From positions 1-24,771 of the IMG/VR virus record IMGVR_UViG_3300033154_000190: a DNA stretch of 24,771 nt; one strand, written 5' to 3'. This stretch comes from a virus. The notes beneath the pieces were generated by a model. It was not told the origin of the DNA. It saw nothing but the letters and a program-made list of their open reading frames with translations, and did not search any database. Below, in pieces: positions 2,624 to 8,645 of the stretch; the first letter of the stretch is position 1, and each line of letters opens with the position of its first letter. The position numbers were made by a program, and so were the translations under genes.

Positions 2624-3112
2624 CTATGCCGCTCGGTGGATTCTAAACCGGAGGTCCAGACTAAAGCGCTCATCCCGTTCCTGGTCGAACGCGAGCTCTG
2701 ACTGGTCGAGGAACACATCGCGCAGGTTCGCCGTGTCGGCGTTGACTGTTTGGCCGGCCTTGTAGCCGTCGCCGGCCTGGACGACGGCGCCATCGATGAC
2801 CATGCCGGCCTTGAGCGTTTGCGGGAAACTCGAGCCGGTGATGTCGATCGAGAACGGCCGCGCTTGCCGGAGCGTTCCATCGCGGCCGAAGAACGCCTCG
2901 AGGTCGGCGCGTTCGGTCGTCGTCAGGAATCCCCACGACGCATCCACGAACTGGTCGGAGCCGTCGAGGTCTTGCACGTAGACGATGCCGCCCTCGGTGA
3001 TGCCGCGCCCTTGGCGAAAGTTGCGCCGATCGACATCGTTGAACTCGGCATTCCGAATCGTCGCGGTGAGCGTGACGCCCTCGGGGTTCGTGACGGTGAA
3101 GGTCCACGACAT
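2624..3112 (-). CDS. Distal-tail-like protein downstream of tape measure
   Basis: This 162-aa ORF has its ATG overlapping the tape-measure stop as TAATG, so the two are probably translationally coupled. The protein begins MSWTFTVTNPEGVTLTATI, with beta-strand alternation, and has FGRDGTLRQARPFSIDITGS in the middle and a C-terminal RFSLDLRFRIHRA strand. Siphoviruses usually encode a distal tail protein or minor tail protein immediately after the tape measure, and size and beta content fit. No sequence motif proves that identity, so it is a synteny-based call. Confidence 0.7.
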   Translation of the reverse strand: MSWTFTVTNPEGVTLTATIRNAEFNDVDRRNFRQGRGITEGGIVYVQDLDGSDQFVDASWGFLTTTERADLEAFFGRDGTLRQARPFSIDITGSSFPQTLKAGMVIDGAVVQAGDGYKAGQTVNADTANLRDVFLDQSELAFDQERDERFSLDLRFRIHRAA

Positions 3113-6100
3113 TAGAACGGGCCGCCTTGCTTCACGCCGAGCTTCGTCTGGCGCCGGAGCTCGGGGAGCATGGCGCGAATCTGCGCCCGTGTTCCGATCG
3201 TGCTGCGATCGCTCGCGTTGATGGTGTTGTTCACGGTGACGCCTCGGTTGAGCTTGCGGAGCTCGGCCGCGCCCAGGGCGTTCGCCGCCTTCCTACGGAT
3301 GACGAACTCGCCACGGTGACCGATGAACGCGCCCGTCTTTGAGAGGAAGCCGCCGCGCTGCCTGCTCTCGATCTGCCCATCGTTCCCGATCGGCCGGCCG
3401 GTGATCGAGCGCCGGCCGCTCGAGCTCGAGCGGAACGAGCCGGCGCCGCTGGCCGCGCTGGTGACGCCCTGGGCCGACGCCTTGAGTCCGTCCATCGCCT
3501 TGGCCGCCGCGTCGAGCTCGCCAGCCAGGCCGGCCTTGCCTGCCTTGTCGGCCGCCGCTTGCATCGACTTCGCGAGCCTGTCGAGCTCGGCCTTCGCCGG
3601 GTCTTTCGCCGCGTCGGCGAGCTTCCGCATCTCGTCGGCGAGCCGCTGGAACTTCGCCTGGGCCTTCGGGCCAGTCGCGTCGCCCAGGGCGACGAACTTG
3701 CGTTGGAGCTTGCCGAAGCTGCCAGGCAGGTCGGCCTTCTTAATCGCCTCGCCCGTAGACTCGAAAAGCTGCTGGGTCTTGGTGACGGCCGCCGTGAATT
3801 GCTCGGGGGTCGTGAGGCCGGCGAGGCCGTCGGTGATCTCTTGCTTGAGCTTGAGGAACGCGGGGCCGAACGCGTCGGTGCCGATGCTCCTGGCGAGCTC
3901 TTTGATCTTGTCTTTGACGGCCGTGAACGAGGCCGACACTTTGGGATCGTCGGCCGCTTCCTTCGCGAGCTTGCGGAAGCGCTGGAACAGTTGCGCGAGC
4001 GCTTCCATCGCTCCCTGCTGGCCGCCGCCGCCGCCGCCGCCGCCTCGAGCTCCTGGGCCTTGGACCATGCCGCCGAACTGGCCGGAGCCGCCGCCCTGGC
4101 CGCCCGTCGCGCCGACGGTTCCAAACTGGCCGCCGCCGCCTCGGAGTCCTGGGAAGCCGGCGCCGCGTTGGCCGCGCACGATGCCCAGGGTGAGCCGGCC
4201 GCGTGAGCCGCCGCCGCTTCGCTGGTGCCGCCGCCGGCCACCTGGACGGCCGCCGCCTGGACGGCCGCGTTTCTTCGCCGCGCTCTCGAGCTCCTTCCGT
4301 TGCTGCCGCACCGAGGTCGTCATCCGGTTGGTCTTTTTGGCCGCCTCCTCCTGGGCGTCGCCGACGCCGTCGATCTTCTCCTTGAGCTTGTCGAAGCGCG
4401 TGCCGAGGTTGCCGAGGATCTCGACCTGCTCGGCGAGCTTGCGCGAGCTCACGGCCGCCGCGTCGCCCATCATCTTCTCGGCGTCGGCGATCCCCTTGGC
4501 CGCCTTGTCGAACTTCTTGGCCGCGTCCTCGCCGGCGACCAGGGCGACGGCCGCCGCGATCCCCTCGGCGACGAACTTGACGGCCTTGAGCGTGCCCTCC
4601 GCGATCGTGAAGATGGCGAGGCTCGCCGCGTTGCCGGCCGTGAGGATCGCCGCGCTCGCTCCCTCAAACGCAACGATGATGCCGGCCGCGATGCCGCCGA
4701 TCGAGGAGAACGCGGTGGCCGTCTCGCTGCCGGCGATCCCTGCCGCCTTCGCCATCTCTCCGATCGCCGCGATGATCTTCTTGATGAACAGGATCGACGA
4801 CTTCACGAAGCGCCCGATGCTCTTGCCCATCTCGGTCGCCGAGTTGATGAACGCCTTGCCGTTCTTCTCGACGAACACCAGGAACTCATCGAACGCGTTG
4901 CCAGCGCTCGAGAGGTCAACGCCGACGGCCGTGAGGAATCCGTTGATGGCCGCCTTCGCGACGTTCACGAAGATCGTGACGACGCGACCGATCTGCTCGC
5001 TTCGCTTCTGCATGAACTCGGCGAAGCTGCCGAACACCTTGCGGGCCTTCGTCACCATGTTGTTGAGCGCGGTGACGATCGGAACGAAGATCGGCGCGAG
5101 TCCCTCGCCGAGAGAACGGAACGCATCCTTCGCGCCCTGGACGACGCTCGAGAACTGGAATGCCAGAGTCCGTTCGACCTTCTTGAAAGCCGTCTCGGCC
5201 GCGCCGGTCGCGTTGCGCGTTTGCTTGAGCGTGTCGATGAACTTCTTGAAGCCGTCGCCGGCGAGGATGCTGACGCCGTTGAGCGCTCGCACGTTCGGGA
5301 AGAACTCAACCAGTCGCCGGTTGTTCTGTCGGACGGCCGTCCGAACTTTGGTGATGGCGTCCTCGAGCCCTAGCTGGCTATCGGCGAGCGTGTCGGCCGA
5401 GACGCCGATGCTCGCGAACGCCTTGGCCGCCGACTCGCTCGGCTTGAGGATGCCGACGATGGTCGCCTTGAGCGCGGTGCTCGTCTCGGCCGTGTTCAAT
5501 CCGCTCGCGGTGATCGACGCCATCGCGGCCGACATATCGGCGAAGCGCACGCCGGCCGACGCGGCGACGGGGGCGACCTGGCCGATCGACGCGGCGAGCT
5601 CGGACATCGTTGTCTTGCCGGCCTTGATCGTCGCGAACAGAACGTCGGACGCATTGTCCACGTCGATCGCCTGGCCGACAAACGCGTTCATCACGGTGGT
5701 CAACGCGTCCACGGCTTCGTCGGCCGTCGAGGCGCCGGCCGCCGCTGCCTTGAACGCGGCCTCTAGGAACGCCGGCGCCTGGGCGACGGTTCGCCCAGCC
5801 GAGATGGCTTGGTAAGCCGCCTCGGTCGCTTCGAGCACGTCAACGCCCATCGTCACCGAGAGTTGCCGGAGCTCCTTCGATAGCCTGGCGATCGCCTTGG
5901 GCTGGCCGTCGATGAGCGTCGTGACCTGAGCGAACTTCTTTTCAAACTTGGCGAACGATACGACGGCCGCGATGCCGACGCCGGTGAGCGCCGCGCCGGC
6001 GACGGCCGAGAGCTTCGCCATCGTTTTGAGGCCGCCGGCGATCCCCTTGAACGCCTTGCCGAGTTTCGCGCCGGTGCTCTCGCCTTGCTTGGTGAGGTCG

Positions 6101-6189
6101 CCCAGGCTGCGTTGCGCCTTCTTCGACGCACCGACGAAGCCGCGAGAGTCGCCGGAGATTCTTCCTTCGAGCTCTGGGCCTCTTGCCAT
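3112..6189 (-). CDS. Tail tape measure protein
   Basis: At 1025 aa this is the longest gene. It starts at the ATG at 6189 behind an AAAGG site, 3 bases after the GT chaperone frame ends. The N-terminus is a helical region with hydrophobic segments (about residues 50-90). A TP901-like tape-measure core follows, for example LSVTMGVDVLEATEAAYQAI and ASDVLFATIKAGKTTMSELA (roughly residues 108-260). Further hydrophobic helices lie around 480-560. A Gly/Arg-rich low-complexity stretch with an eight-Gly run sits at about 638-723. The C-terminus has FLSKTGAFIGHRGEFVIRR, a common ending of tape-measure proteins. These proteins set tail length and sit in the tail lumen with the tail chaperones. Length implies a tail of roughly 150 nm by the usual rule of about 0.15 nm per residue. 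Confidence 0.93.
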   Translation of the reverse strand: MARGPELEGRISGDSRGFVGASKKAQRSLGDLTKQGESTGAKLGKAFKGIAGGLKTMAKLSAVAGAALTGVGIAAVVSFAKFEKKFAQVTTLIDGQPKAIARLSKELRQLSVTMGVDVLEATEAAYQAISAGRTVAQAPAFLEAAFKAAAAGASTADEAVDALTTVMNAFVGQAIDVDNASDVLFATIKAGKTTMSELAASIGQVAPVAASAGVRFADMSAAMASITASGLNTAETSTALKATIVGILKPSESAAKAFASIGVSADTLADSQLGLEDAITKVRTAVRQNNRRLVEFFPNVRALNGVSILAGDGFKKFIDTLKQTRNATGAAETAFKKVERTLAFQFSSVVQGAKDAFRSLGEGLAPIFVPIVTALNNMVTKARKVFGSFAEFMQKRSEQIGRVVTIFVNVAKAAINGFLTAVGVDLSSAGNAFDEFLVFVEKNGKAFINSATEMGKSIGRFVKSSILFIKKIIAAIGEMAKAAGIAGSETATAFSSIGGIAAGIIVAFEGASAAILTAGNAASLAIFTIAEGTLKAVKFVAEGIAAAVALVAGEDAAKKFDKAAKGIADAEKMMGDAAAVSSRKLAEQVEILGNLGTRFDKLKEKIDGVGDAQEEAAKKTNRMTTSVRQQRKELESAAKKRGRPGGGRPGGRRRHQRSGGGSRGRLTLGIVRGQRGAGFPGLRGGGGQFGTVGATGGQGGGSGQFGGMVQGPGARGGGGGGGGQQGAMEALAQLFQRFRKLAKEAADDPKVSASFTAVKDKIKELARSIGTDAFGPAFLKLKQEITDGLAGLTTPEQFTAAVTKTQQLFESTGEAIKKADLPGSFGKLQRKFVALGDATGPKAQAKFQRLADEMRKLADAAKDPAKAELDRLAKSMQAAADKAGKAGLAGELDAAAKAMDGLKASAQGVTSAASGAGSFRSSSSGRRSITGRPIGNDGQIESRQRGGFLSKTGAFIGHRGEFVIRRKAANALGAAELRKLNRGVTVNNTINASDRSTIGTRAQIRAMLPELRRQTKLGVKQGGPF

Positions 6190-6192
6190 CCT

Positions 6193-6399
6193 TTACTCTG
6201 CTCCTCGCGAGCTCGCCGCTTCGTGTTCTTCGGAGTCTCTCAGTGCCGCGTAGGACAAGAGTAACACCTGCTCCTCGCGAGCGAGAGCACTGAACGAAGC
6301 GCCAGGAGGTAGGGGCCAGGGTGGAAGGTCTGGAAAGAGCTCCCACAAGCGGAGCTCCCAATAGACCTGCGTGCGTCGCTGGCCCTCCTCTAGTTTCCC
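6193..6399 (-). CDS. Tail chaperone GT extension made by -1 frameshift
   Basis: This frame has no convincing start of its own. It is entered from the G gene by slippage on GGGAAAC (minus strand), giving GKLEEGQRRTQVYWELRLW, and runs to a TAA 3 bases before the tape measure. The extension of about 68 aa is aromatic and Pro-rich in the middle (WELFPDLPPWPLPPGASF) and ends in an acidic helix (EEQVLLLSYAALRDSEEHEA). In lambda-like phages the T domain recruits tail-tube subunits to the tape measure while the G part coats it. The layout of G, slippery site, stop, short extension and tape measure is the same here. Frames and heptamer are seen directly; the role is from family knowledge. Confidence 0.85.
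   Translation of the reverse strand, partial: GKLEEGQRRTQVYWELRLWELFPDLPPWPLPPGASFSALAREEQVLLLSYAALRDSEEHEAASSRGAE
6313..6385 (-). promoter_or_regulatory. Nested RNA stem downstream of slippery site
   Basis: Three nested perfect inverted pairs lie in order: outer 6379-6385 with 6313-6319 (GGGCCAG/CTGGCCC), middle 6363-6368 with 6326-6331 (AGGTCT/AGACCT), and inner 6351-6357 with 6337-6343 (GAGCTCC/GGAGCTC, 7-base loop). Unpaired bases separate the levels. Because this is also coding for the GT extension, its symmetric nesting is unlikely to be accidental, and it probably stimulates the frameshift. Confidence 0.6.
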
Positions 6400-6953
6400 G
6401 AGGTCGCGCCCAGCGCTTCGCGTGCGCCGTCGAGCTCCTCGTCTGCCAGGCCGGCGAGACGCATCGCCGCGTTGGTGAGTCGGTTGATCGCGACCAGGTC
6501 GATCCCGAACGCCTCGAGCTCGAGCCACACGGCATCGTAGTAATCGACCAGGGCGCCGGCCGGCTTGCCCTCGCCGTAGTCCTCGAGCTTGGCCTCCGTT
6601 TCGATCTGGCCGCCGATGCACTCGAGGAGCATCCCGAGGGTCTTGGCTCGGTTGTGCCGCCCCTCGAGCTCGCCGTGTTTCTCGAGCGCCTTGAGGTAGG
6701 CCGGGTCGCGTTCGTTCCTGGTCGTGATCGGCCGGCCGCCGTCGTCCTTCTGCACTCGGCCGCGCTCGTCGCGGAGCACTTCGCCGGCCGGTGCCTGTGG
6801 CGCCGGCGGCGCCTCGAGCTCGGAGTCGAGCGAGGTGATCGCGTTGAGCCTCGGTGCCTTGAGCTCGATGACCAGGGCGGTCCCGTCCTCCAGGTCGCCG
6901 AGGTTGACGCTCTCGGTCCTCGCCTTGATGCCTACGTGTCCCAGAATCTTCAT
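6390..6953 (-). CDS. Tail assembly chaperone G
   Basis: This 187-aa ORF starts at the ATG at 6953 behind a GGGAGGAGCG ribosome-binding site and ends TCG GGA AAC TAG. The sequence begins MKILGHVGIKARTESVNL, has a Pro/Ala-rich linker (APPAPQAPAGE) near residue 48, and a long helical second half (LLECIGGQIETEAKLEDYGE). It lies between the tail-tube genes and the tape measure, the position of G-type chaperones in siphoviruses. The last sense codons form a canonical -1 slippery heptamer, so a fraction of ribosomes should make the GT fusion extending to 6193. The start overlaps a TGA of the upstream tube gene frame as ATGA. Confidence 0.88.
   Translation of the reverse strand: MKILGHVGIKARTESVNLGDLEDGTALVIELKAPRLNAITSLDSELEAPPAPQAPAGEVLRDERGRVQKDDGGRPITTRNERDPAYLKALEKHGELEGRHNRAKTLGMLLECIGGQIETEAKLEDYGEGKPAGALVDYYDAVWLELEAFGIDLVAINRLTNAAMRLAGLADEELDGAREALGATSGN
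6393..6399 (-). promoter_or_regulatory. Programmed -1 ribosomal frameshift slippery heptamer
   Basis: The minus-strand heptamer is G GGA AAC in the G frame, immediately followed by the TAG stop. It fits X XXY YYZ and resembles the lambda G-T site GGGAAAG. Slipping back one base reads GGG AAA CTA GAG and enters the frame that ends just before the tape measure. A nested stem begins 7 bases downstream (6313-6385), the usual spacer for a frameshift stimulator. Confidence 0.85.
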
Positions 6954-7821
6954 AGCCGCTTCGCTCCTCCCACCTGTTCGGGCCGGTGGGCCGCCGGTGT
7001 GTTATGCGGAGCTCGATGGTTTGCTCGCTCGGTGGGCTCACGATGTCGGACGGGCCGCCAGGGGAAACGCTCGGCTTGGTGACGTAGCCGATCCCCGAGA
7101 AGGTCAACGTGTCGAACTCGTCGCCCTCGGCTTGCTCGACGCTCTCGATCGTCGCGTGGTTGATCTCGTATTGCTCGGCGATGACGCCTTCCTTCGTGAG
7201 AGCCACATCGAACTTTTCGAGAATGATGAGGAACGTGCGGCGATCGCTTTCGCAACGCGGCGACGTGATGCCCTTCGGGTCGAGCGTGCTGGTGCCGATC
7301 GCGTCGAACACGACATCCATATCCGTGTCGGCCGCCGCCGGGTAGACGTTGACGGTGCCGGGGTCAATCTCGAGGAACTCGGCCTCCTGGCGAAGCAAGC
7401 CGACGGGCTCGGAGAACTCGTTATCCGCCGACGGCGCGACGCCGTGCGCGAGCTTCGTGGCGATCGCCTCGCCGGTCGCGGGCTGCATCGATCCCTGCCG
7501 GTATCGGTAGGGAACGGCCGCGAGGTTGTTGCTCGAGGGGGTGAGCGCTTTGATCTGGAAGGCCGTCGCTTCCCACACGTAATCCTCGGCCGTCTCTCGG
7601 AGCGTCTTGTCGATGAACTTGGCAGAGAACGACCAGGCGACGGCTTCCTCATCGCCTCGACGAAGGTGGCCCAGGGCGCCGCGATCTTTGACCTGGATGG
7701 TCGTCTTGGCTCGCGTGAACGAGAAGTCTCCCTCCGTGAACGCGGCCGTTTTCTCGAGCGCCAGAGGCACATCGCCAGAGAACAAACGGATGCGTCCGTG
7801 GCGCAGGTTCTTAGTCGGCAT
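6950..7821 (-). CDS. Tail tube protein, second paralogue (3' frame unresolved)
   Basis: It starts at the ATG at 7821, with an AGGAGG site about 8 bases upstream. The protein opens MPTKNLRHGRIRLFSGD and shares long stretches with the gene at 7881-8645: KTAAFTEGDFSFTR, then SFSAKF-DKTLR, then ESVEQAEGDEFDT, then a C-terminal FSG-x-YVTK strand. A simple all-beta protein before the G/GT chaperones is the usual tail-tube gene. The opened frame does not stop at the G start; it reads on in atypical codons to 6193. In another frame a TGA overlaps the G start (ATGA at 6950-6953), so an indel near 6960-7060, or a lost stop, is likely. The functional product is about 270-290 aa. Confidence 0.8.
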
Positions 7822-7847
7822 CGTTCTGACCTCCTGGGGGCGATCGC

Positions 7848-7874
7848 CGCCGAGCTCGGGGCGCGAGCTCGGCG
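7848..7874 (-). terminator. Hairpin between the two tail-tube genes
   Basis: Perfect 11-base inverted arms (CGCCGAGCTCG / CGAGCTCGGCG) at 7848-7858 and 7864-7874 flank a 5-base loop in the 59-base gap. No T-run follows on the minus strand. It may be a partial terminator or mRNA-stability element that sets different levels of the two tube proteins. GAGCTC cores are common throughout this genome, which weakens the case. Confidence 0.4.
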
Positions 7875-7880
7875 ACTCGG

Positions 7881-8645
7881 TTAGACGATGGTGGCCTTGG
7901 TGATGTAGGCGAAGCCGGAGAAGCTGACGGTGTCGAACTCGTCGCCCTCGGCCTGCTCGACCGACTCGACCACGCAATGGTTGAGTTGGTATGTCTCATC
8001 CACGATCCCCTGGGCGGCGAGAGCCACGTCGAGTTTCTCGAGGTCGATGCGGAACGTCTTGACATCCGACGTGCCGGGGTCAAGCGTCGAGCGCCCGATG
8101 GCGTTGTAGATGATGTCCACGTCGGTGTCGGCCGCCGGGGGCTGAACGGCGAACGTGCCGCCGACAACCACCACGGCCTCGGCGTCGCCGACCATCTCGA
8201 CGCCTTCGAGGTCGTCGCGGGTTTTCAAGTCCTCGCCATACTCGCCGTCCGAGCTCGGCGCGACGCCGTTCGCGACCTTCGTCTGGATCGCGTCGCCGGC
8301 CGCCGTCGCCAGGCTGTCCTGCTCGTAGGCGTAGGCGGTCGGCTCGGCCGGGTTGTTCACTTGCGCGGTGAGGCCGGTGATGTTCTCGGTCGTGCCGTCC
8401 CAAATGAACTCCTCGAGACAACGCCGGAGGGTCTTATCGACGAACTTGGCCGAGAAGGAATACGTGATGGCCTCCTCGTCTCCCTTGCGGAGATGGTCGA
8501 GCTTCCCCCGGTTCTTAACTTGGATGGTGTTCTTCGTTCGCGTGAACGAGAAGTCGCCCTCCGTGAACGCCGCCGTCTTGACCAGGGCAACGGCGTCGCC
8601 GCTCTGAATCTTGATGACGCCTTGCCGTAGGTTGTGAGTTGGCAT
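7881..8645 (-). CDS. Tail tube protein, first paralogue
   Basis: This 254-aa ORF has an ATG start and an AAAGGAGAAAC ribosome-binding region. It opens MPTHNLRQGVIKIQSGDAVA and is beta-rich and acidic, typical of siphoviral major tail proteins. Motifs shared with the next gene include AAFTEGDFSFTR near residue 25, YSFSAKFVDKTLR near residue 62, and ESVEQAEGDEFDTVSFSG near the C-terminus. It ends in a frame-consistent stop, unlike its paralogue. Tube monomers polymerise round the tape measure with the help of the GT chaperone encoded further on. Which paralogue is the main tube subunit cannot be told from sequence. Confidence 0.82.
   Translation of the reverse strand: MPTHNLRQGVIKIQSGDAVALVKTAAFTEGDFSFTRTKNTIQVKNRGKLDHLRKGDEEAITYSFSAKFVDKTLRRCLEEFIWDGTTENITGLTAQVNNPAEPTAYAYEQDSLATAAGDAIQTKVANGVAPSSDGEYGEDLKTRDDLEGVEMVGDAEAVVVVGGTFAVQPPAADTDVDIIYNAIGRSTLDPGTSDVKTFRIDLEKLDVALAAQGIVDETYQLNHCVVESVEQAEGDEFDTVSFSGFAYITKATIV

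Follow-up and report, generated by a model that had tools for sequence, protein, structure and literature searches.

Do the overlapping reading frames that lie between putative major tail protein genes and the tape measure gene of this virus form a tail assembly chaperone module of the lambda G/GT type, and does the nested stem that follows the slippery heptamer belong to that module? In phage lambda, the G/GT -1 programmed frameshift uses the heptamer G_GGA_AAG, and counterparts of this arrangement are widespread in long-tailed phages. The stretch of DNA analysed here, referred to as the window, is 24,771 nt in length and corresponds to positions 1 to 24,771 of the IMG/VR virus record IMGVR_UViG_3300033154_000190. 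The explanation of the locus as a whole in which high confidence is placed is that of a G/GT module of a long-tailed phage, the triple-nested stem being most likely a by-product. The features concerned are listed in Table 1.

Table 1. Location of the G/T module, its sequence elements and the neighbouring tail genes in the window.
Feature	Position	Strand	Remarks
G, tail assembly chaperone (predicted)	6390..6953	-	187 aa; zero frame; homologues in L003 and L016; predicted fold
Slippery heptamer G_GGA_AAC	6393..6399	-	adjoins zero-frame TAG; identical in three lineages
T, -1 frame extension	6193..6393	-	66 aa and stop; conserved protein; two predicted helices
Nested pairs, probably incidental	6313..6385	-	present; not above synonymous recodings or protein constraint
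CAGGTGTTACTCTTGT within T	6255..6270	-	identical in three lineages; includes TTA
Tape measure protein	3112..6189	-	1025 aa; PHROG tail length tape measure families; Pfam PhageMin_Tail
Major-tail-protein-like gene 1	7881..8645	-	254 aa; assigned by position only; first of two tandem paralogues
Second tandem major-tail-protein-like gene	7009..7821	-	extends to the point of the 59-bp loss; own stop gone

The 3' end of G reads TCG GGA AAC TAG, and the zero-frame codons GGA AAC are followed immediately by the stop codon (6392-6390). The heptamer GGGAAAC, which a preliminary description of the locus had placed directly before this stop, is found there in phase, at 6399-6393 on the minus strand, and occurs only once on that strand of the window. 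The -1 frame begins with CTA (6393-6391). It had been credited with about 68 residues ending just before the tape measure gene: the end is correct, the T stop codon at 6195-6193 and the tape measure ATG at 6189 being separated by 3 nt, but the length is 66 residues.

Searches of viral contigs supplied a comparison set composed of two diverged relatives, L003 and L016, in addition to near-identical contigs (L002 and others). L016 was the one additional relative recovered with an exact search for the 16-base heptamer pattern; the other new contigs containing this pattern were rejected as chance matches, since their downstream frame is unrelated. Profile searches of viral contigs with G, T and the tail and tape measure proteins retrieved no further T-bearing relatives, and no relatives were found among genome contigs. 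Identity to the window protein is 57% (L003) and 63% (L016) for G and is higher in both for T, at 72% and 76%, respectively.

Heptamer conservation in these related phages is exact, TCGGGAAACTAGAGGAGG being letter-for-letter identical in the window, L003 and L016. Upstream of the heptamer, the T frame extends for no more than 39 nt in L016 and 45 nt in L003 before it is closed, and the shift must therefore occur within that stretch, in which GGGAAAC is the sole X_XXY_YYZ site in both relatives. When synonymous conservation was followed from G through T into the tape measure gene, it was found to peak over the last part of G, as far as the heptamer (z 3.5). The heptamer and the -1 frame are more than chance, and the sequence comparisons indicate that the -1 frameshift is very likely to be real.

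The genetic context points in the same direction. The order of genes is two tail-protein-like genes, G, T and tape measure, and the overlapping G and T frames immediately precede the tape measure gene and follow the putative major tail protein genes, which are assigned by position. The tape measure protein is readily recognised (best PHROG E 3.7e-54; Pfam PhageMin_Tail E 2.6e-33). No Pfam or PHROGs match was obtained for the first of the tail-protein-like genes, and for this reason the name 'major tail protein' rests on position. Such a tandem paralogous pair (7009-8645, minus strand) precedes G in all lineages.

Sequence searches with the products of the module itself were negative: G has no match among the phage records searched, and scans against Pfam and PHROGs assigned neither G nor T to a family at E values up to 0.1 and, when relaxed to E values up to 10, gave at most one weak and unrelated match. 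Rfam and tRNA scans of the window returned nothing. A predicted model of G (mean pLDDT 75, built from three sequences) was aligned with 896 solved chains. The top two matches were Bacillus subtilis YqbN (3klu, Z 6.8), a prophage protein of the tail-chaperone type, and the HK97 tail assembly chaperone (2ob9, Z 6.4), whose identity is stated in the title of the entry; the next match had a Z-score of 3.9. Z-scores of 6-7 are moderate, sequence identity of G to the two proteins is 12-13% with an rmsd of 4.4-6.0, and G is longer than both (187 compared with 107-119 residues). The position of two phage tail proteins, apart from all others at the top of the list, is a specific result for a predicted model, and it suggests that G adopts a fold known from tail assembly chaperones. 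This evidence is given moderate weight because of the pLDDT value and the three sequences from which the model derives. The best viral fold match, to an uncharacterised protein of Bacillus phage Staley (E 1.8e-4), was not counted as evidence.

A G/GT -1 frameshift is thus strongly supported by heptamer identity, conservation of the T frame, gene order and the predicted fold of G, all of which, like the overlapping frames themselves, were shown in the analysis. The likeness to lambda G/GT initially suggested by heptamer and gene order has been reinforced by T-frame conservation, by the predicted fold of G and by the relatives. As in lambda, a short G and a -1 frame T are located between tail protein and tape measure genes, a tandem-slip heptamer is found near the end of G, and G is predicted to have a tail-assembly-chaperone-like fold. 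However, the last base of the heptamer is C instead of the G of lambda, and G and T differ from lambda-type modules in having no detectable sequence relation to described families. GGGAAAC itself has been described for the G-T frameshifts of Caulobacter phage Colossus (PMC3556154) and of the haloarchaeal virus HCTV-1 (PMC5009743). The heptamer is identical and the genes are of the same kind, although the phage records searched contained no sequence match to the G studied here. In the SEA-PHAGES training set the distance from heptamer to stop has a mean of 26 nt (PMC10885494), whereas here the heptamer abuts the stop (0 nt), at the short end. The module is a conserved but ordinary one of the lambda type in a sequence-novel phage group. 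It adds a sequence-novel and well-conserved tail-chaperone frameshift to an otherwise unannotated group of phages, in which G, GT and the tape measure gene can now be annotated.

In the mechanism proposed, the majority of ribosomes would translate G as far as the TAG and release G. In a minority, the P- and A-site tRNAs on GGA AAC would slip back by one base, re-pair with GGG AAA and go on at CTA GAG GAG, producing the GT fusion. The junction expected from the heptamer is ...ATSGN-LEEGQ... (ATSGN followed by LEEGQRRTQVYWELR; expected junction peptide EALGATSGNLEEGQR). That slippage occurs, how frequently it does so and what G and GT do in tail assembly are points that we infer, the last of them from lambda, where the gpG to gpGT ratio is about 30:1 and where the tape measure protein is the binding partner of G and the major tail protein that of T (PMC5009743). 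By analogy, coating of the tape measure protein would fall to G, and recruitment of the major tail protein to the T part of the fusion. Slippage would be assisted at most by a simple stem after the 7-nt spacer, or by the abutting stop codon; it might be favoured by slow reading of the stop codon in the A site.

Several readings dispense with slippage altogether. T might be no more than the tail of a long frame which passes from the second tail-protein gene across G, and in the window this frame does continue without interruption over the 1596 nt that precede the heptamer. The fused frame is due to the loss of 59 bp, which are present in the near-twin IMGVR_UViG_3300033147_000114 and absent from the window at 7008-7009 (minus strand), just after GAGCTC. 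By this loss, the second tail-protein gene is deprived of its own stop and its frame then continues through G, in an alternative frame, into T (ORF 6193-7977). In the near-twin, L003 and L016, the tail-protein gene stops in another frame before G, and closure of the T frame 39-45 nt upstream of the heptamer in L003 and L016 refutes the long-frame reading, to which practically no credence can be attached. The 59-bp difference is either a true deletion or an assembly error. Its existence in the upstream gene could be invoked for the idea that G and T are a single gene split by a sequencing or assembly error, but three separate contigs of differing divergence all change frame in this way at this heptamer. 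This refutes the idea, and its probability is negligible.

T could also be made separately, by termination at the TAG followed by re-initiation with the aid of the Shine-Dalgarno-like AGAGGAGG just after the stop. This sequence does directly follow the stop in the three lineages, but it can be accounted for simply as a conserved Glu-Glu. Moreover, the T frame includes no ATG, GTG or TTG before codon 15 in the window and L016, or before codon 18 in L003. Since no early start codon exists while codons 1-14 of T are strongly conserved as protein, re-initiation is disfavoured; it would also leave the conservation of the heptamer unexplained, and is highly improbable. A -1 frameshift at GGGAAAC remains the preferred reading.

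The three nested perfect pairs of 7, 6 and 7 bp noted in the preliminary description are present, separated from the heptamer by a 7-nt spacer (TAGAGGA). They comprise an outer pair GGGCCAG/CTGGCCC (6385-6379 with 6319-6313), a middle pair AGGTCT/AGACCT (6368-6363 with 6331-6326) and an inner pair GAGCTCC/GGAGCTC (6357-6351 with 6343-6337). The view that they represent an unusually elaborate part of the module could not be upheld: the folding energy is unremarkable, the relatives lack the triple nesting, and they pair to the degree expected from the protein. The folding energy of 6300-6410 corresponds to z = -1.0 with respect to dinucleotide shuffles. When the region +5 to +100 was compared with recodings of T using phage codon usage, P was 0.63 for the window, 0.14 for L016 and 0.06 for L003 (three sequences), and 35% of random 95-nt segments of the minus strand are equally stable. 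Three nested helices of at least 6 bp appear in 3.6% of recodings of the window T (P = 0.036, post hoc), and L003 and L016 have two nested helices only. Covariation in the related phages was not observed: 0 of 20 pairs changed on both sides, and 88% of cells pair, in a comparison whose three lineages give such RNA-stem tests little power.

As the decisive control, the number of pairs that protein conservation should retain was estimated with a protein-only null, in which L016 and L003 were recoded with their proteins kept and the 20 pairs of the window were counted. L016 keeps 18 of the 20 (16.2 +/- 1.5 expected; P 0.20, or 0.56 when adjusted for relatedness) and L003 keeps 15 (15.0 +/- 1.4 expected; P 0.63, adjusted 0.93). 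Because retention equals this null, the T protein, EGQ...QVYWELRxWELF.DLPPWP, explains why the pairs are conserved. Within it, the WELRxWEL motif, written with GAGCTC, gives the inner hairpin. This self-complementary hexamer occurs 145 times in the 24.8-kb window, compared with about 8 occurrences expected from base composition; the excess probably consists largely of GAG CTC (Glu-Leu) codons, and it places palindromic hairpins everywhere in the window. The T protein motif and codon bias most likely gave rise to the triple-nested stem as a by-product. The stem is not supported as a selected element and should not be described as distinctive. A more general caution is that G+C-rich phage genes full of GAGCTC give striking nested stems from protein motifs and codon bias alone, and nested stems therefore need a synonymous-recoding test before they receive a functional label.

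A simpler proposal is that the downstream stem is a selected stimulator, in which the G-rich 5' arm, 7 nt after the heptamer, pairs with a partner about 50-70 nt downstream and pauses the ribosome. Stem-loop stimulated -1 frameshifts are known in E. coli dnaX and in IS911. The stem described here resembles these in beginning 7 nt after the heptamer, but differs in showing no sign of selection and in that no upstream Shine-Dalgarno stimulator was seen in the 30 nt before the heptamer. The partner would have been swapped between lineages, GGGCCAG/CTGGCCC in the window and L016 being replaced by GGGGCAGG/CCTGCCCC in L003, each preceded by a 7-nt spacer. An outer stem is kept in the individual folds of all three lineages, and a stem of 7-8 Watson-Crick bp starting 5-9 nt after the heptamer gave P = 0.26, 0.09 and 0.036 in the three lineages relative to synonymous recodings, values that are not independent and not combinable because the stem of the window and L016 is shared by descent. 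Few recodings give a stem as long as that of L003 (P 0.036 for Watson-Crick pairs, below 0.001 with G-U). Against this, no pair of the stem has changed on both sides, the pairs retained are those of the protein-only expectation and the folding energy of the window is ordinary, so that a selected stimulator appears rather unlikely.

Another conserved element is located within T. The sequence CAGGTGTTACTCTTGT (CAG GTG TTA CTC TTG T, 6270-6255, minus strand) is identical in the three diverged lineages, and TTA is absent from ten other genes of the window in one count and from twelve in another. An AGA a few codons beyond is likewise kept. Between the window and L003, rare codons are retained at 5 of 9 positions in T and at 9 of 66 in other genes (P 0.009, a post hoc comparison with T from the codon table); between the window and L016 the corresponding figures are 3 of 10 and 18 of 94 (P 0.33). 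A hairpin considered for the conserved GTGTTACTC block was rejected, as it did not exceed recodings (P 0.40-0.78, over a short stretch), and no consistent long-range pairing partner was found for the rare-codon block. The conservation of GTG TTA CTC TTG is accounted for by neither a stable hairpin nor a consistent partner. It is conceivable, but quite improbable, that the invariant CAGGTGTTACTCTTGT with its TTA, about 130 nt downstream, acts with the stop-abutting heptamer and the swappable stem to tune frameshifting or the relative amounts of G, GT and tape measure protein.

In L016, the first tail-protein gene (6634-7395, minus strand) changes frame with a repeated RGKLDHLRRGDEEAV stretch, which is probably an assembly artefact. 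In L003, the tape measure protein (3806 onward) can be aligned with that of the window (3112-6189) only over approximately the first 50 residues, whereas G and T are conserved; to judge from these alignments, a module swap has taken place just after T.
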